Positions 4,835-41,557 of a stretch of DNA of 64,000 nt are shown piece by piece. Each line of letters begins with the position of its first letter. The first letter of the stretch is position 1. Both the position numbers and the translations under genes were made by a program. Where the stretch lies: positions 434,001-498,000 of the forward strand of contig NZ_WNIJ01000001.1 in NCBI RefSeq assembly GCF_009725755.1, given 5' to 3'. The notes below the pieces were generated by a model. The model saw only the letters and a list, made by a program, of their open reading frames with translations, had not been told where the DNA came from and ran no database searches. The stretch is from Bombella sp. ESL0385 (GTDB lineage Bacteria > Pseudomonadota > Alphaproteobacteria > Acetobacterales > Acetobacteraceae).

Positions 4835-5596
4835 ATGTCTATTGAATCGTTATTGAATCTTCTTGATACGCTTTTGGATGAGCAGGGTCTTTCAGATAGA
4901 CGGGCTTGTTTGAAGGCGCGTGAGATTAATCCTGCTGTTGGGGTGGATTTTTTGCGGGATATGCGCCGGAGAAAACATCTACCGCGGACGGATAAATTGG
5001 CGGCTTTGGCGCAAGTGCTTGGTGTGCCGGTGAGTCGTTTGGTAGCGGAAATTAGCCATAAGGGGGAAGAAGACGCAGCGCAGGCCTCTGATGGGGCGTC
5101 TGCGCCTTCTTTGCCAGTAGCGCAGATTCAAGTTTGTGGAGAGGTGCAGGCTGGAGTGTGGAAAGAGGCGCAGGAATGGCCTGTGCTGGACCGTTATGCC
5201 ATTACGATCCCGCAGGATTCGGCATATCCAGGGCTAAAGCGTTATGGGTTGATGGTGAAGGGGCAGTCCATGAATCGGGTGTTTCAAGAAGGTTCGGTGG
5301 TGATTGTCATTAATTTCTCCGAATTGGGGCGTAGGCCGCGGAATGGGGATTATGTGGTGGCGATGCAGCGCTCGGATGTTTCGGATAGTTTTGAAGCAAC
5401 GATTAAGGCGGTGCAGATTAAAGCGAGTGGGCAGATGGTATTATGGCCGCAAAGTACGGAGCCGGAGTTTCAGGCTCCTTTGATTCTACCGGGGCCTGAA
5501 ACGACTGTGTGCCATAGTGCGGCGGAAAGCCCGAATGTAACGATTTTAGCGTTGGTAGTGGGGAGTTATATGCCTATGCCCAAGGCGTCCTTTTAA
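4835..5596 (+). CDS. LexA/CI-like phage repressor with S24 peptidase domain
   Basis: This is a 253-residue transcriptional repressor expected to be inactivated by RecA-stimulated self-cleavage. The N-terminal 75 residues form a DNA-binding domain (the SDRRACLKAREINPAVGVDF region, then KLAALAQVLGVPVSRLVAEI). A linker with acidic and Ala-rich stretches follows. The C-terminal S24 domain shows the Ala-Gly cleavage bond in EVQAGVW (A106-G107), the nucleophilic serine in VKGQSMNRVF (S145) and the catalytic lysine in EATIKAVQ (K191). All three are intact, so it should respond to DNA damage. The start has no ribosome site and fits a leaderless transcript. It diverges from the phage genes and is followed closely by dinB. 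Confidence 0.9.
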   Translation: MSIESLLNLLDTLLDEQGLSDRRACLKAREINPAVGVDFLRDMRRRKHLPRTDKLAALAQVLGVPVSRLVAEISHKGEEDAAQASDGASAPSLPVAQIQVCGEVQAGVWKEAQEWPVLDRYAITIPQDSAYPGLKRYGLMVKGQSMNRVFQEGSVVIVINFSELGRRPRNGDYVVAMQRSDVSDSFEATIKAVQIKASGQMVLWPQSTEPEFQAPLILPGPETTVCHSAAESPNVTILALVVGSYMPMPKASF

Positions 5597-5621
5597 AGGC
5601 GTTATCCCATATTAGGATGGT

Positions 5622-6731
5622 ATGAGGATGAACGCGAAGCCTAAAGGTGATGGGGAGGAGGGGATACGGCGCATCCTGCATGTGGATATGGATGCGTTTT
5701 ATGCGTCTATCGAGCAACGGGATAATCCAGCATTACGGGGGCGGCCTGTGGCGGTGGGGCGTGCTGTGGGACGGGGTGTGGTAGCGGCAGCGAGTTATGA
5801 GGCGCGTGCTTATGGGGTGCGGTCTGCTTTGCCCTCCCATAAAGCGTTGGAGCGGTGCCCGGAATTGATTTTTGTGCCGCCGCGTTTTGAGGTTTATCGG
5901 GCGGTATCGGCCCAGATTCATGACGTTTTTAGGCGTTATACGCTGATGATTCAGCCCCTTGCATTAGATGAAGCTTATTTGGATGTGACGGAACAATGGG
6001 CGGCTTATGGCTCGGCCACGGCGATTGCTGAGGCGATTCGGCGTGAGATTCAGAAAGAAACGGGTTTAACGGCATCAGCGGGGGTGTCGTATAATCGCTT
6101 TTTGGCGAAATTGGCGTCTGGGCAGCGGAAGCCTAATGGGTTGTTTGTGATTCCTCCTCAGCGGGGGGCGGCGTTTGTAGCGGATTTGCCGGTGGAGAGG
6201 TTTCATGGTGTGGGGCCTGCGACAACGGCGCGGATGCATAAGCTTGGGATTTATACGGGAGCGGATTTAAAGACATGGAGTGTGGCGGCGTTGCGTCAAT
6301 ATTTTGGGAGTTCTGCTCAGTTTTATCATGATATTGCGCGGGGGGTGGATTATCGACCGGTTGAGGTGAATAGGCCGCGCAAATCTTTGGGGACGGAGAC
6401 GACCTTTGCGCGTGATGTAGAGGCGTGGGAGAGCCTTGCTGCTACATTGGAGGGGATTGTTGCGAAGTTGATAATGGCGTGTGAGCAGAAGTCCATTGCG
6501 GGGCGAACGGTGACGTTGAAGTTGCGTTATGCGGGGTTTCATACAGTAACGCGGGCGCGTTCGGCTCCGTTTCCGATTGTGGAGGGGGCTGTGTTACGGC
6601 GGATGGCTTTGGAATTATTGCGTAGTTTCTTCCCGTTGGAGCGGCCTATCCGTTTGCTTGGATTAACTATTTCTGCTCTTGGGGTGCGGGATGAGGTAGT
6701 GCCGGTGCAGATGGGGTTATTTGAGGAATAG
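5622..6731 (+). CDS. dinB: DNA polymerase IV (Y-family)
   Basis: This error-prone translesion polymerase is 369 residues long, normal for the family. Catalytic acids are visible in HVDMDAFYASIE (D22, D24) and in PLALDEAYLDV (D116, E117). The residue at the steric-gate position is Tyr27. The finger motif SYEARAYGVRSALP and the helix-hairpin-helix GVGPATTARMHKLGI are present, and the little-finger domain follows. The C-terminus carries QMGLF, a good match to the beta-clamp binding pentapeptide. The gene lies 25 bases after the phage-type repressor on the same strand with no terminator and no GTTC-N7-GTTC LexA box in the gap, so co-transcription with the repressor is likely. Confidence 0.95.
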   Translation: MRMNAKPKGDGEEGIRRILHVDMDAFYASIEQRDNPALRGRPVAVGRAVGRGVVAAASYEARAYGVRSALPSHKALERCPELIFVPPRFEVYRAVSAQIHDVFRRYTLMIQPLALDEAYLDVTEQWAAYGSATAIAEAIRREIQKETGLTASAGVSYNRFLAKLASGQRKPNGLFVIPPQRGAAFVADLPVERFHGVGPATTARMHKLGIYTGADLKTWSVAALRQYFGSSAQFYHDIARGVDYRPVEVNRPRKSLGTETTFARDVEAWESLAATLEGIVAKLIMACEQKSIAGRTVTLKLRYAGFHTVTRARSAPFPIVEGAVLRRMALELLRSFFPLERPIRLLGLTISALGVRDEVVPVQMGLFEE

Positions 6732-39141: not shown

Positions 39142-39162
39142 GCTTTTACGGCGAGAGGGAAT

Positions 39163-40122
39163 CTAATGCTCATTGCCCGCCATGGGGTCTCGTAAGGCCC
39201 CAGCGGGGAGGGCCGTATCATCTAGTTGGTCTTCAAAACTGGCTTGTAAGATGTTCTGCCATTGTGGGAGCCATTTTTTCATTCGTGCGACAAAATGGGC
39301 TGATACAGGGTGGGAGGGCAACGCATCCTTCAACCAAGCGGGCGGTGGAGCAAGGAGTTGATGTGTTTGTGGGTTTAAGGGCGGGATGAGGAAATCTATC
39401 GTGCCGACTTGGGCCCTGCCGTCATTTGTTGCTTCGATATGCCGCCATTGCGCCGTCACAAAGAGGGGCGGAATTGGAAAACCCATGACGTTAAGCCGTG
39501 CAATCGCCTCGTTGGTGAAAGGGCTGTCGCTGGGTGTGGGGCCGTGCAAAGTGATGAGACGCAGGGCGGCGCAATCCTCTACGGCTTGTGCTGTGGTGAG
39601 TGTGTTATTGAGGTAGTTGCGGTCATCATGACACACATCAGTCTCCGCCATAACTTGCTCTAGCGGGATGGGTTGCTCGGTTGCTTGGGCGATGAGGATC
39701 CCCGTCACTGCCCCTAGCTCTGTGCGGATTAAAGCGAGAAAGGAATAAGGGGAATTATCGGTGATTTGGGCAGCTAGAACAGGATGCCATGCCCCATGGG
39801 GGAGTAAAAGTGTGTGATTACCGAGTGTAATATGGCCTGTGATAGTTTCTGCTAAGTCAGGATATTGTAGATGAACAGGCATAGGGTGGGATGCGGCTGA
39901 CCCGGAGTTAGAGGCTTGCGGTCTCAAGGCGGTGTTATGTGTGTTGTTGGGCTGAGATGCTGTCTCTAGGGCATGGTTGGGCAGCCATGGGGCGAGCTTT
40001 GTAAGGGTATGAGTGGGGAAGAAAACAGCCAAAGCGATGCTAATACCGCATAAGCATACACAAAGCCGCCATAGGGGAGCATGACGCCATAGGGCAGAAA
40101 AAGCAGAGCAAAAGCGGGTCAT
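39163..40122 (-). CDS. Membrane-anchored protein of unknown function (319 aa)
   Basis: I do not recognise a family. One N-terminal membrane segment (about residues 14-36) is followed by an Ala/Ser/Asn-rich stretch and a soluble domain (about 85-310) with DLAETITGHITLGNHTL, RTELGAVTGILIAQ and AQVGTIDFLIPPLN. Cysteines in ETDVCHDD and VEDCAAL might pair. Positive charge before the segment suggests that the domain faces the periplasm. The ATG overlaps the stop of the AAA+ gene upstream by four bases, so the two are probably made together and may form one complex. Confidence 0.7.
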   Translation of the reverse strand: MTRFCSAFSALWRHAPLWRLCVCLCGISIALAVFFPTHTLTKLAPWLPNHALETASQPNNTHNTALRPQASNSGSAASHPMPVHLQYPDLAETITGHITLGNHTLLLPHGAWHPVLAAQITDNSPYSFLALIRTELGAVTGILIAQATEQPIPLEQVMAETDVCHDDRNYLNNTLTTAQAVEDCAALRLITLHGPTPSDSPFTNEAIARLNVMGFPIPPLFVTAQWRHIEATNDGRAQVGTIDFLIPPLNPQTHQLLAPPPAWLKDALPSHPVSAHFVARMKKWLPQWQNILQASFEDQLDDTALPAGALRDPMAGNEH

Positions 40123-41360
40123 AAACGAGCCTTGTTCATACGGGTTTGCGGGCCGTTGCTGGGGTGGATGCTTAAAGCCCCTGTTGGGCTGGAGAGGAGA
40201 TGAATATGGGTGTAATTTTGTTGCTGAGCGGTGATGAGGGCATCGCTTAACATATCTTCGATAAGGCGGCGGACGCCATGGGCATTGGTTATCTCTTGGG
40301 CATTATAGTGCTTTTGTAAGGGCTGGCTGAAAAGGGATGGGTCAATCCCGCCCGCTTCCACCGTGAGGCCATAATTGCGGATGAGCCTTTCGGCCTCCAA
40401 GGCGGCAATGCGTGTAAGGCTGGCGCGTGTAAGGGGGTGGAAGGTGAAGCTACGGTCCACATGCCCGAGTAGGAGTGGGGGAATTACCTGCTCTGTGGGT
40501 GTGGGAGAGGGATTTGCAGGCTCCAACGCGCTATGAAGCGAGGTTGTGAGGATAAAGATAGATTGTGTTGTCGGGATATGTTTGCCCGTGATGGGGTCAG
40601 GGATGTATCCATCCATCCATGCTGAGATAAGAGCATTGCCGATTTCCGGAGGGGTATATTCGACCCCATTGAGGAGGATGAGGGCATCGGGTTGTGCCCT
40701 GAGGGTGGTGGCGAGGTCATTTAAAAAAGTCAGCCCATAAGTGGGGGGCTGTGCGATGGGAGGCTCTGCCCCCGTGGGGGTGAGTTTTTGCATATCAAAC
40801 GGCACGAGGGGGCGCGCTGTTTGGAGAGCAAGTTGGCGGGCAAGATGTGTTTTGCCTGTACTGGGCGGGCCACTAAACAGAAAAACGCCGACAGGTTGTG
40901 TTCTATTATGGAGGCTAAGACGCCGGCGTAATTGCTGGCTAATCTCCTCACAAATATCATCATGGCCAATGACGCGCGTTTGCAGCGTTGTTGCGAGTTC
41001 CTCTGCATTAAAGCTAGAATCTTGCTGCAAGCGGATGGCGGTTTTCTCATAGGCTTTGGTATTGATTAAATACCCAAGGAGAAGGGTTAGCGGTGTTTTG
41101 CGATGGAATAGGCCATGCTGGGCTAACCGCTCGACAGACAGATAATAGAGTATCCCCCCTAAAGAGAGGGCCAAGGTAATGCAGGCTAGAGGGCTATAAA
41201 AGGGGCGGCCATGGTCGAGTATTTTATAGCCTGTATGGATAATGGCTAAGGGTGCGGTGTGGAATAGAAGGCCAAGCTGTATGAGAGCCAGTAGCAGGAA
41301 AAGGGCCATCATAAGCGGCATCATGCGCGAAAGCCAAAGGAGGAGAGATTTCATCATATG
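40119..41360 (-). CDS. Membrane-anchored Clp-like AAA+ protein with degenerate Walker B
   Basis: The product (413 residues from ATG 41360; a TTG with AGGA at 41393 is an alternative) has two N-terminal membrane segments (about 8-33 and 53-75) and a ClpA/ClpB-type AAA+ module. Walker A is intact (GPPSTGKTHLA, about 164-174). The Walker B position, normally LLDEIE, reads LLNGVEY, replacing the metal-binding Asp by Asn and the catalytic Glu by Gly. A possible arginine finger (GHVDRSFTFHPL) and a sensor-2 arginine (HGVRRLIEDML) remain. It may bind ATP but hydrolyse poorly. Coupled by a four-base overlap to the unknown membrane protein. Function unknown. Confidence 0.75.
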   Translation of the reverse strand, partial: HMMKSLLLWLSRMMPLMMALFLLLALIQLGLLFHTAPLAIIHTGYKILDHGRPFYSPLACITLALSLGGILYYLSVERLAQHGLFHRKTPLTLLLGYLINTKAYEKTAIRLQQDSSFNAEELATTLQTRVIGHDDICEEISQQLRRRLSLHNRTQPVGVFLFSGPPSTGKTHLARQLALQTARPLVPFDMQKLTPTGAEPPIAQPPTYGLTFLNDLATTLRAQPDALILLNGVEYTPPEIGNALISAWMDGYIPDPITGKHIPTTQSIFILTTSLHSALEPANPSPTPTEQVIPPLLLGHVDRSFTFHPLTRASLTRIAALEAERLIRNYGLTVEAGGIDPSLFSQPLQKHYNAQEITNAHGVRRLIEDMLSDALITAQQQNYTHIHLLSSPTGALSIHPSNGPQTRMNKARL

Positions 41361-41528
41361 CTTATATCGCTCACGCTTATTCTTTAAGGCCAAGTATATT
41401 CCTACAGCCTATGGTTTTATGGGAAGCGTGAGAAAGAGGAAAGGGGGGAGGAGGGTATGAGAAAAGCTTGCATCACTTGTGGCTCTGTCGTATCTAGAGA
41501 GATGTTATCACTTTCCGTTCTTTTGGGG

Positions 41529-41554
41529 GGTGGCCCGGTTGGGCCGCCTTTTTT
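41529..41554 (+). terminator. Terminator-like hairpin in the rimP leader
   Basis: GGTGGCCC (41529-41536) pairs with GGGCCGCC (41541-41548), one G-U pair, loop GGTT, followed by six T residues. It ends four bases before the rimP TTG. A complete intrinsic terminator at the head of an essential operon suggests attenuation; a rimP-leader terminator class is known from alphaproteobacteria. It could also end an unseen upstream transcript. Confidence 0.7.
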
Positions 41555-41557
41555 GTT

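Follow-up and report, generated by a model that had tools for sequence, protein, structure and literature searches.

An operon of three genes in the Acetobacteraceae, C-A-B, encodes an AAA+ protein with a membrane anchor (A) and two single-pass membrane proteins (C and B), and in seven small genomes the AAA+ protein has lost its Walker B motif and its pore loop, C is absent, and B is intact. One of these is the genome of the window, the stretch of 64,000 nucleotides that was analysed. The degeneration of A arose four to five times, four times according to the B tree and five times according to the InfB tree. Pseudoenzymes tend to be known as isolated, ancient cases; in this family one AAA+ motor has lost Walker B and the pore loop repeatedly, always without the same neighbour, and close relatives still have the canonical form. 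This allows asking what an AAA+ ring still serves once hydrolysis and threading are gone, and it offers a way towards the client of a so far uncharacterised membrane complex in 26 of 102 sampled genera. If the reading proposed below is true, the seven genomes hold replicated natural experiments in turning an AAA+ motor into a scaffold.

Genes A and B of the window

The window genome (Acetobacteraceae) is 1.9 Mb in size and carries A and B with the following features.

39163–40122, minus strand: gene B, a single-pass membrane protein of 319 residues
39226–39843, minus strand: predicted alpha/beta domain of B, residues 94–299, with two invariant Cys, probably on the periplasmic side
40021–40077, minus strand: membrane helix of B, residues 16–34, predicted by the structure model
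40119–41357, minus strand: gene A, 412 residues with one AAA+ module of the Hsp100-NBD2 type, a putative membrane-anchored pseudo-ATPase
40659–40679, minus strand: degenerate Walker B of A, ILLNGVE, residues 227–233 (canonical VLLDEIE in most relatives)
40848–40871, minus strand: intact Walker A of A, GPPSTGKT, residues 163–170
41142–41204, minus strand: second hydrophobic (membrane) segment of A, about residues 52–72, by eye
41256–41333, minus strand: first hydrophobic (membrane) segment of A, about residues 9–34, by eye

The AAA+ module of A is of a known kind. It is nearest to the second AAA+ domain of ClpE, ClpC, ClpB, and ClpA in Pfam, NCBIfam, and the PDB; the window protein matches Pfam AAA_2 with 27.4 bits (cut-off 27) and matches the second-domain part of the NCBIfam ClpB, ClpA, and ClpV profiles far below their cut-offs. 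Both hydrophobic stretches are N-terminal to the module, and the gene has an alternative open TTG start at 41393. The initial annotation had described two membrane segments, a module of the ClpA/ClpB type, an intact Walker A, and NG in place of the DE of Walker B, and all of these are seen in the protein. Three further elements have been lost: the GYVG pore loop, the arginine finger, where NR has become GH, and the sensor-2 region, so that of the Hsp100 NBD2-type motif set only Walker A is left.

The end of A, with its stop codon, overlaps the ATG of B at positions 40119–40122. This four-base overlap with a gene for a single-pass protein of no known family had also been pointed out, and the description stands, with no match of the window B in Pfam or NCBIfam at E ≤ 1 and a best PDB match of E 2.2. 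A Pfam search with 25 B proteins gave a best E of 0.019, which is at chance level. An LWxxAPLWR motif precedes the membrane helix, and the structure model from 50 sequences (pLDDT 86.5) predicts the helix at residues 16–34, disorder at residues 48–75, and then the alpha/beta domain. The folded domain, with an LPLPPGEW-like motif, recurs in other Acetobacteraceae proteins, in some together with DUF2061 and in some in tandem, and no Pfam family covers these copies (L249–L255).

Distribution and operon context

A search of 397 Acetobacteraceae genomes at E ≤ 1e-25 found A in 106, including that of the window, from 26 of the 102 genera sampled. B is directly downstream of A in all 105 loci read besides the window, as well as in the window itself, and the suggestion that the two genes are conserved as a pair is thereby confirmed. 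The A proteins comprise 98 with KT in Walker A, DE in Walker B, and NR at the finger, one (G234) with KT, DE, and SR, and seven degenerate copies, which makes 99 of 106 canonical in Walker A, Walker B, and the finger arginine. With these residues A looks like an active ATPase in most species; the canonical protein appears to be an active, membrane-tethered Hsp100-type motor, with B as its constant single-pass partner. The initial annotation had proposed to check whether NG is conserved and had named homologues with a canonical DE as evidence against its reading; for the family as a whole the 99 proteins with DE and an arginine finger overturn NG as a conserved motif. Two of the proteins counted as canonical by their residues, G334, which has one internal TGA in A, and G353, come from less complete genomes.

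The seven degenerate copies are those of the window (G000), of two genomes of one genus (G094 and G168), of G103, of Acetobacteraceae bacterium 868 of PMC6558740 (G149), of Saccharibacter sp. EH611 (G190), and of Saccharibacter floricola DSM 15669 (G232). All seven genomes are of 2.4 Mb or less. The full operon is present in Gluconobacter and Acetobacter records, and the stripped form in Saccharibacter and the window genome. In ten loci that were checked, including seven genera-wide relatives of the window, the operon lies between rimP and an ABC permease, as in the window; we read the permease as of the amino-acid type. G168 has an extra 1.4 kb downstream of the operon, and the downstream neighbours differ in several larger genomes. 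The end of B is in another frame in Parasaccharibacter apium AS1 (G006, L071) and in G413 (L084), which is either a C-terminal frameshift or an assembly error. In G158 (L256) the reading of B runs through several frames, A has evolved faster (dN/dS 0.27 against G079), and the A-B system may be on its way to failure.

Neither the three-gene membrane set, nor the B and C families, nor the repeated conversion of A was found in Pfam, NCBIfam, or PADLOC, and no paper among the literature matches listed describes the locus, the gene set, or the conversion. The main text of PMC6558740 and that of PMC9147383 contain neither 'AAA' nor 'Clp', 'ClpA', or 'ClpB'. A role in anti-phage defence was considered and rejected, as the PADLOC matches of A are AAA+ modules, and the window B, one other B, and one C have none.

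Decay of the AAA+ module

The canonical pore loop of A is SPKGYVGSD, and GY[VIM]G is found in 99 of 99 canonical proteins versus none of the seven degenerate ones. Walker B is altered in all seven. The Thr of Walker A is replaced by K, N, or G in six and is kept in the window, and the finger arginine is lost in four (the window, G094, G103, and G168) and kept in G149 and the two Saccharibacter proteins. The Saccharibacter A is the mildest degenerate form, with the Walker A T changed to K, DE changed to ED, the pore loop lost, and the finger arginine kept.

Changes in conserved columns were counted against a reference drawn from 17 genera, with 85 rows for A and 82 for B; the B counts leave out G353, G314, G212, and G158, whose B is broken over several frames. 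In the seven degenerate genomes 38–58% of the conserved columns of A are changed and 0–9% of those of B, compared with 2–14% for A and 3–21% for B when eight held-out canonical genomes are counted in the same way. The decay is uneven along the degenerate proteins. Around the pore loop, Walker B, and sensor 1, 8–52% of the conserved residues are kept, and 61–83% are kept in ARVIGQDQVCEDIAQQLRRRL; the membrane segments and the region N-terminal to the P-loop are better kept than the motor parts. The end branches of the degenerate A proteins have lengths of 0.64–5.6 versus a median of 0.086, and the length for the Saccharibacter pair lies on its stem (1.83). The B branches of the same genomes are within the range of the others.

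Gene C and its absence

Gene C encodes a protein of about 200 residues and is directly upstream of A, as seen in 78 named loci with long flanks. The profile of C gives matches in 97 of the 106 loci, including a frameshifted copy in Saccharibacter sp. 17.LH.SD (G134) and a divergent copy in G234. The nine loci with no match are those of the seven degenerate genomes, G239, and G249. In the case of G249 only 471 bases upstream were fetched at first, and C was found on a later search; the contig of G239, whose A is canonical, starts within A and has no upstream sequence, and a whole-genome search of this assembly at E ≤ 1 found no C elsewhere. C is thus beside A in 98 of the 99 canonical genomes, with one copy frameshifted, and the 99th (G239) is unreadable. 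A whole-genome search at E ≤ 1 found C in none of the seven degenerate genomes, and among the 78 named loci the two that lack it are those of S. floricola and EH611. The association between the presence of C and the state of A has a Fisher p of 4e-11 with descent disregarded.

The place that C occupies in relatives is a short gap in the window.

41394–41557, no strand: gap next to rimP, the place of C in relatives; neither the gap nor the rest of the genome has a match to C

The distance from rimP to A is 645–895 bases in four C-bearing genomes, among them 17.LH.SD with its broken C, and 216–250 bases in the five degenerate genomes checked that have a resolved start, a count to which G103 does not belong. 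In 17.LH.SD (L072, about 5268–5704, minus strand) C is split over two frames beside a canonical A, which could be an intermediate, the first step towards loss, or an assembly error.

C has one membrane segment, preceded by a short proline-rich tail and followed by a beta-rich domain. The structure model from 51 sequences (pLDDT 72.3) has a helix pair and beta strands, and the first 67 residues are mostly unresolved. Candidate known folds gave weak beta-sandwich matches, none of them firm (best Z 5.6). The last residue of C is Q or E in 94 of 96 sequences, and P.[PA][EQD] precedes the most hydrophobic stretch in 57 of 96, versus 21 expected from shuffling, and is missing in 39. The operon was found here only in Acetobacteraceae; outside the family the search was made with the C profile, which gave four partial matches in 289 genomes of the class; the best, with E 5e-4, spans 48 positions, and all four are regarded as chance hits.

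Repeated origin of the degenerate state

Descent was read from the InfB and B trees, as long branches meet in the A tree. For the window the InfB tree is the tree of the strain and not of the locus, which the B tree covers. G158 was left out of both, the search motif being missing for InfB and B being split over frames. The minimum number of state changes is five on the InfB tree (29 genomes) and four on the B tree (34 rows). The sisters starred on the InfB tree pair the degenerate copy of the window with the canonical one of P. apium AS1, that of G149 with that of Acetobacteraceae bacterium 880 of PMC6558740 (G063), and those of EH611 and S. floricola with that of 17.LH.SD. A single clade of G094, G168, G103, EH611, and S. 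floricola is rejected (p-AU 0.0043). The count falls to four because the B tree joins G103 with G094 and G168, at weak support (87/75). Among independent pairs on supported InfB branches, C agrees with the state of A in three of four and ties in one, with 17.LH.SD scored as C-broken; on the B tree C agrees in two to three of three pairs, with at most one tie. C is never opposite on either tree. Pair counts this small cannot reach significance on either tree.

Selection on the degenerate protein

Between the two degenerate Saccharibacter genomes without C, S. floricola and EH611, A differs by a dS of 0.285 and a dN of 0.016, a dN/dS of 0.056 from stop to stop; from the start codons the ratio is 0.059 for A and 0.058 for B. 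The 78 synonymous and 16 nonsynonymous changes in A give p = 9e-32 against neutrality, and the mildly degenerate A of this pair is therefore still selected. This disfavours a rotting pseudogene in that one lineage. Of seven canonical A pairs, five have a dN/dS of 0.02–0.06, one has identical proteins, and one (G079/G158) has the ratio of 0.27. Changed catalytic residues under continuing purifying selection, which define a functional pseudoenzyme, are found in the Saccharibacter pair only, and, as its changes are mild and its finger arginine is kept, some nucleotide function may persist there. In the other pairs with a degenerate member the synonymous sites are saturated and the ratios, where they can be formed, are a rough 0.13–0.20. 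The window allele has no close relative, and its nearest alleles are saturated at synonymous sites. The A genes of G094 and G168 have a dN of 0.43 at saturated dS, which makes a ratio near 1 unlikely.

These results bear on whether the change seen in the window is a local mutation. Homologues with a canonical DE do exist, as a local mutation would have it; however, the change has four to five origins, is always C-less, and is strongly purified in one lineage.

A mosaic locus in the window

The DNA around the operon of the window is close to that of P. apium, and the operon itself is not.

39142–41458, no strand: tract, read as replaced, inside which DNA identity to P. apium drops

Identity to P. 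apium is 98% to the left of 39142 and 86–89% to the right of 41458, and inside there are short matches of 70–83%. The tract is operon-sized, and its edges are in intergenic DNA. Among the 30 InfB fragments compared, that of P. apium AS1 has 100% identity with the fragment of the window genome, whereas the window A and B are 49% and 45% identical to those of P. apium, whose B tail is frameshifted. The dS to P. apium is 0.03–0.07 in one flank and 0.29–0.72 in the other, and it reaches 2.4 in A and B, where, unlike in the flanks, synonymous sites are saturated, the A value being the clean one because the B values for AS1 include the frameshifted tail. On the B tree the window is inside the Bombella group (100/99) and outside the clade of P. 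apium (100/99). The simplest reading is that the operon of the window is a C-less allele taken in by recombination from an unsampled relative. If the allele arrived already C-less, the loss of C happened in the donor line.

Proposed model and alternatives

The reading that we favour, with roughly even confidence, is that C-A-B is an ATP-driven membrane remodelling complex in which the motor serves C, and that once C is lost A becomes a non-hydrolysing scaffold for B. The motor would face the cytoplasm, with the domains of B and C probably periplasmic. It may grip the tail of C, or something that C delivers, and remodel or extract it; A would remodel rather than degrade, with C as client or client adaptor. 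Loss of C would make threading and hydrolysis useless, and A would persist as a scaffold for B as its pore loop and Walker B decayed, along with the finger arginine in four of the seven copies. The window strain would have acquired its C-less allele by recombination. The link between A and C is drawn from their co-loss rather than from contact. Confidence stays at this level for two reasons: the supported events number only four to five, and the measured case, Saccharibacter, is the mildest. More tentatively, and at somewhat below even chances, C-A-B can be seen as an undescribed membrane Hsp100 machine whose motor acts on C, in which each loss of C led in parallel, at least four times, to a structural pseudo-ATPase that is under selection and sustains the function of B, with finished alleles movable between related bacteria by recombination. 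The earlier suggestion of a scaffold rather than an unfoldase thus suits the window copy and not the family, which is mostly canonical.

Since all seven degenerate genomes are of 2.4 Mb or less, erosion may drive both losses, and small-genome erosion could have removed C and relaxed A independently with no functional link between them. Five small relatives (G073, G154, G204, G244, and G099) in which whole-genome searches found neither A nor B, and which are without the operon altogether, are in line with this. However, among the 23 A-bearing genomes of 2.4 Mb or less the 16 canonical ones all have C (15 intact and one frameshifted) and the seven degenerate ones all lack it, and B is intact in all seven, which leaves independent erosion rather unlikely. 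It is also unlikely, and a little more so, that the degenerate A is a dying gene, carried along through the overlap or close contact of its end with the B start codon, with only B mattering. Four degenerate end branches of 1.8–5.6 changes per column, against the median given above, and changes in 49% of 242 conserved A columns are what such a gene would show; against this, the degenerate Saccharibacter copies have a dN/dS of 0.06, as low as that of B, no stop lies inside any of the seven frames, and for G094 and G168 neutrality fits poorly with the dN found at saturated dS.

The initial annotation had also raised an ATP-gated membrane sensor. A degenerate A that still binds ATP and serves B as a sensor or switch under nucleotide control would account for the GPPSTGKT kept in the window and for the finger arginine kept in three of seven, but the replaced Walker A Thr in six of seven goes against it across the degenerate set, as does a finger arginine lost in four, the window included, and we regard this explanation as quite improbable. 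Activation of another AAA+ protein in trans has a precedent in the membrane-bound inactive AAA+ activators LAP1 and LULL1 of torsins, as described in PMC5425593. These activators, according to the same source, supply an arginine finger, which the window A has lost, and the other matches to A in the window genome are two long frames of 894 and 806 residues, ClpA/ClpB-sized by our reading and not a second small A; a trans activator is therefore very improbable.

Comparison with known systems

The second AAA+ domain of ClpB, ClpA, and ClpC gives the best PDB and NCBIfam matches to A, and its canonical motifs are present in 99 of 106 A proteins. Unlike these proteins, A has one module, is membrane-anchored, and scores far below the family cut-offs (170.6 and 169.7 bits for two canonical A proteins and 60.6 for the window A, against a ClpB equivalog cut-off of 1232.1). 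The ClpP-docking tripeptide sits between sensor 1 and the arginine finger, and [LIV]G[FL] is found at this place in none of the 99 canonical A proteins. FtsH and YME1L resemble A in having an N-terminal membrane anchor and an AAA+ ring; an FtsH-type protease was rejected, with 12.5 bits for the window A and 18 for a canonical A against a cut-off of 600, and the Pfam matches of the window A include no peptidase family. A MoxR/VWA system of the NorQ/NorD type was also rejected, the 25 B proteins giving one vWA-TerF-like match at chance level (E 0.16).

The best structural matches of the B domain are middling, all with Z below 8: Mog1 (Z 7.7 over 153 residues, rmsd 4.6), CyanoP (6.6), PsbP (6.3), and PknH (6.3), and MTC28 is also among them; the best Foldseek E is 0.023. 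B differs from Mog1 and PsbP-like domains in having no sequence match, an extra membrane helix, and an invariant Cys pair.

Torsin with LAP1 or LULL1 is likewise an Hsp100-related AAA+ protein at a membrane with a known inactive AAA+ partner (described in PMC5425593). The torsin system is in a different compartment, however, and in the case of A it is the ATPase itself that appears to have turned inactive. Torsin as an identity for A was rejected, the window A matching Pfam PF06309 with 12.2 bits (cut-off 27), which is at chance level.

Skd3, or human CLPB, shares with canonical A a single AAA+ module similar to the Hsp104 NBD2, complete with both Walker motifs and a Tyr in the pore loop. PMC7343390 describes it as a working ATPase and disaggregase that combines this module with an ankyrin part and needs its Walker and pore-loop residues. 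Skd3 is mitochondrial and requires the ankyrin part for activity (PMC7343390), whereas A carries a pair of membrane segments and shares its operon with two partner genes, and the A of the window has parted with Walker B, the finger, and the pore loop.
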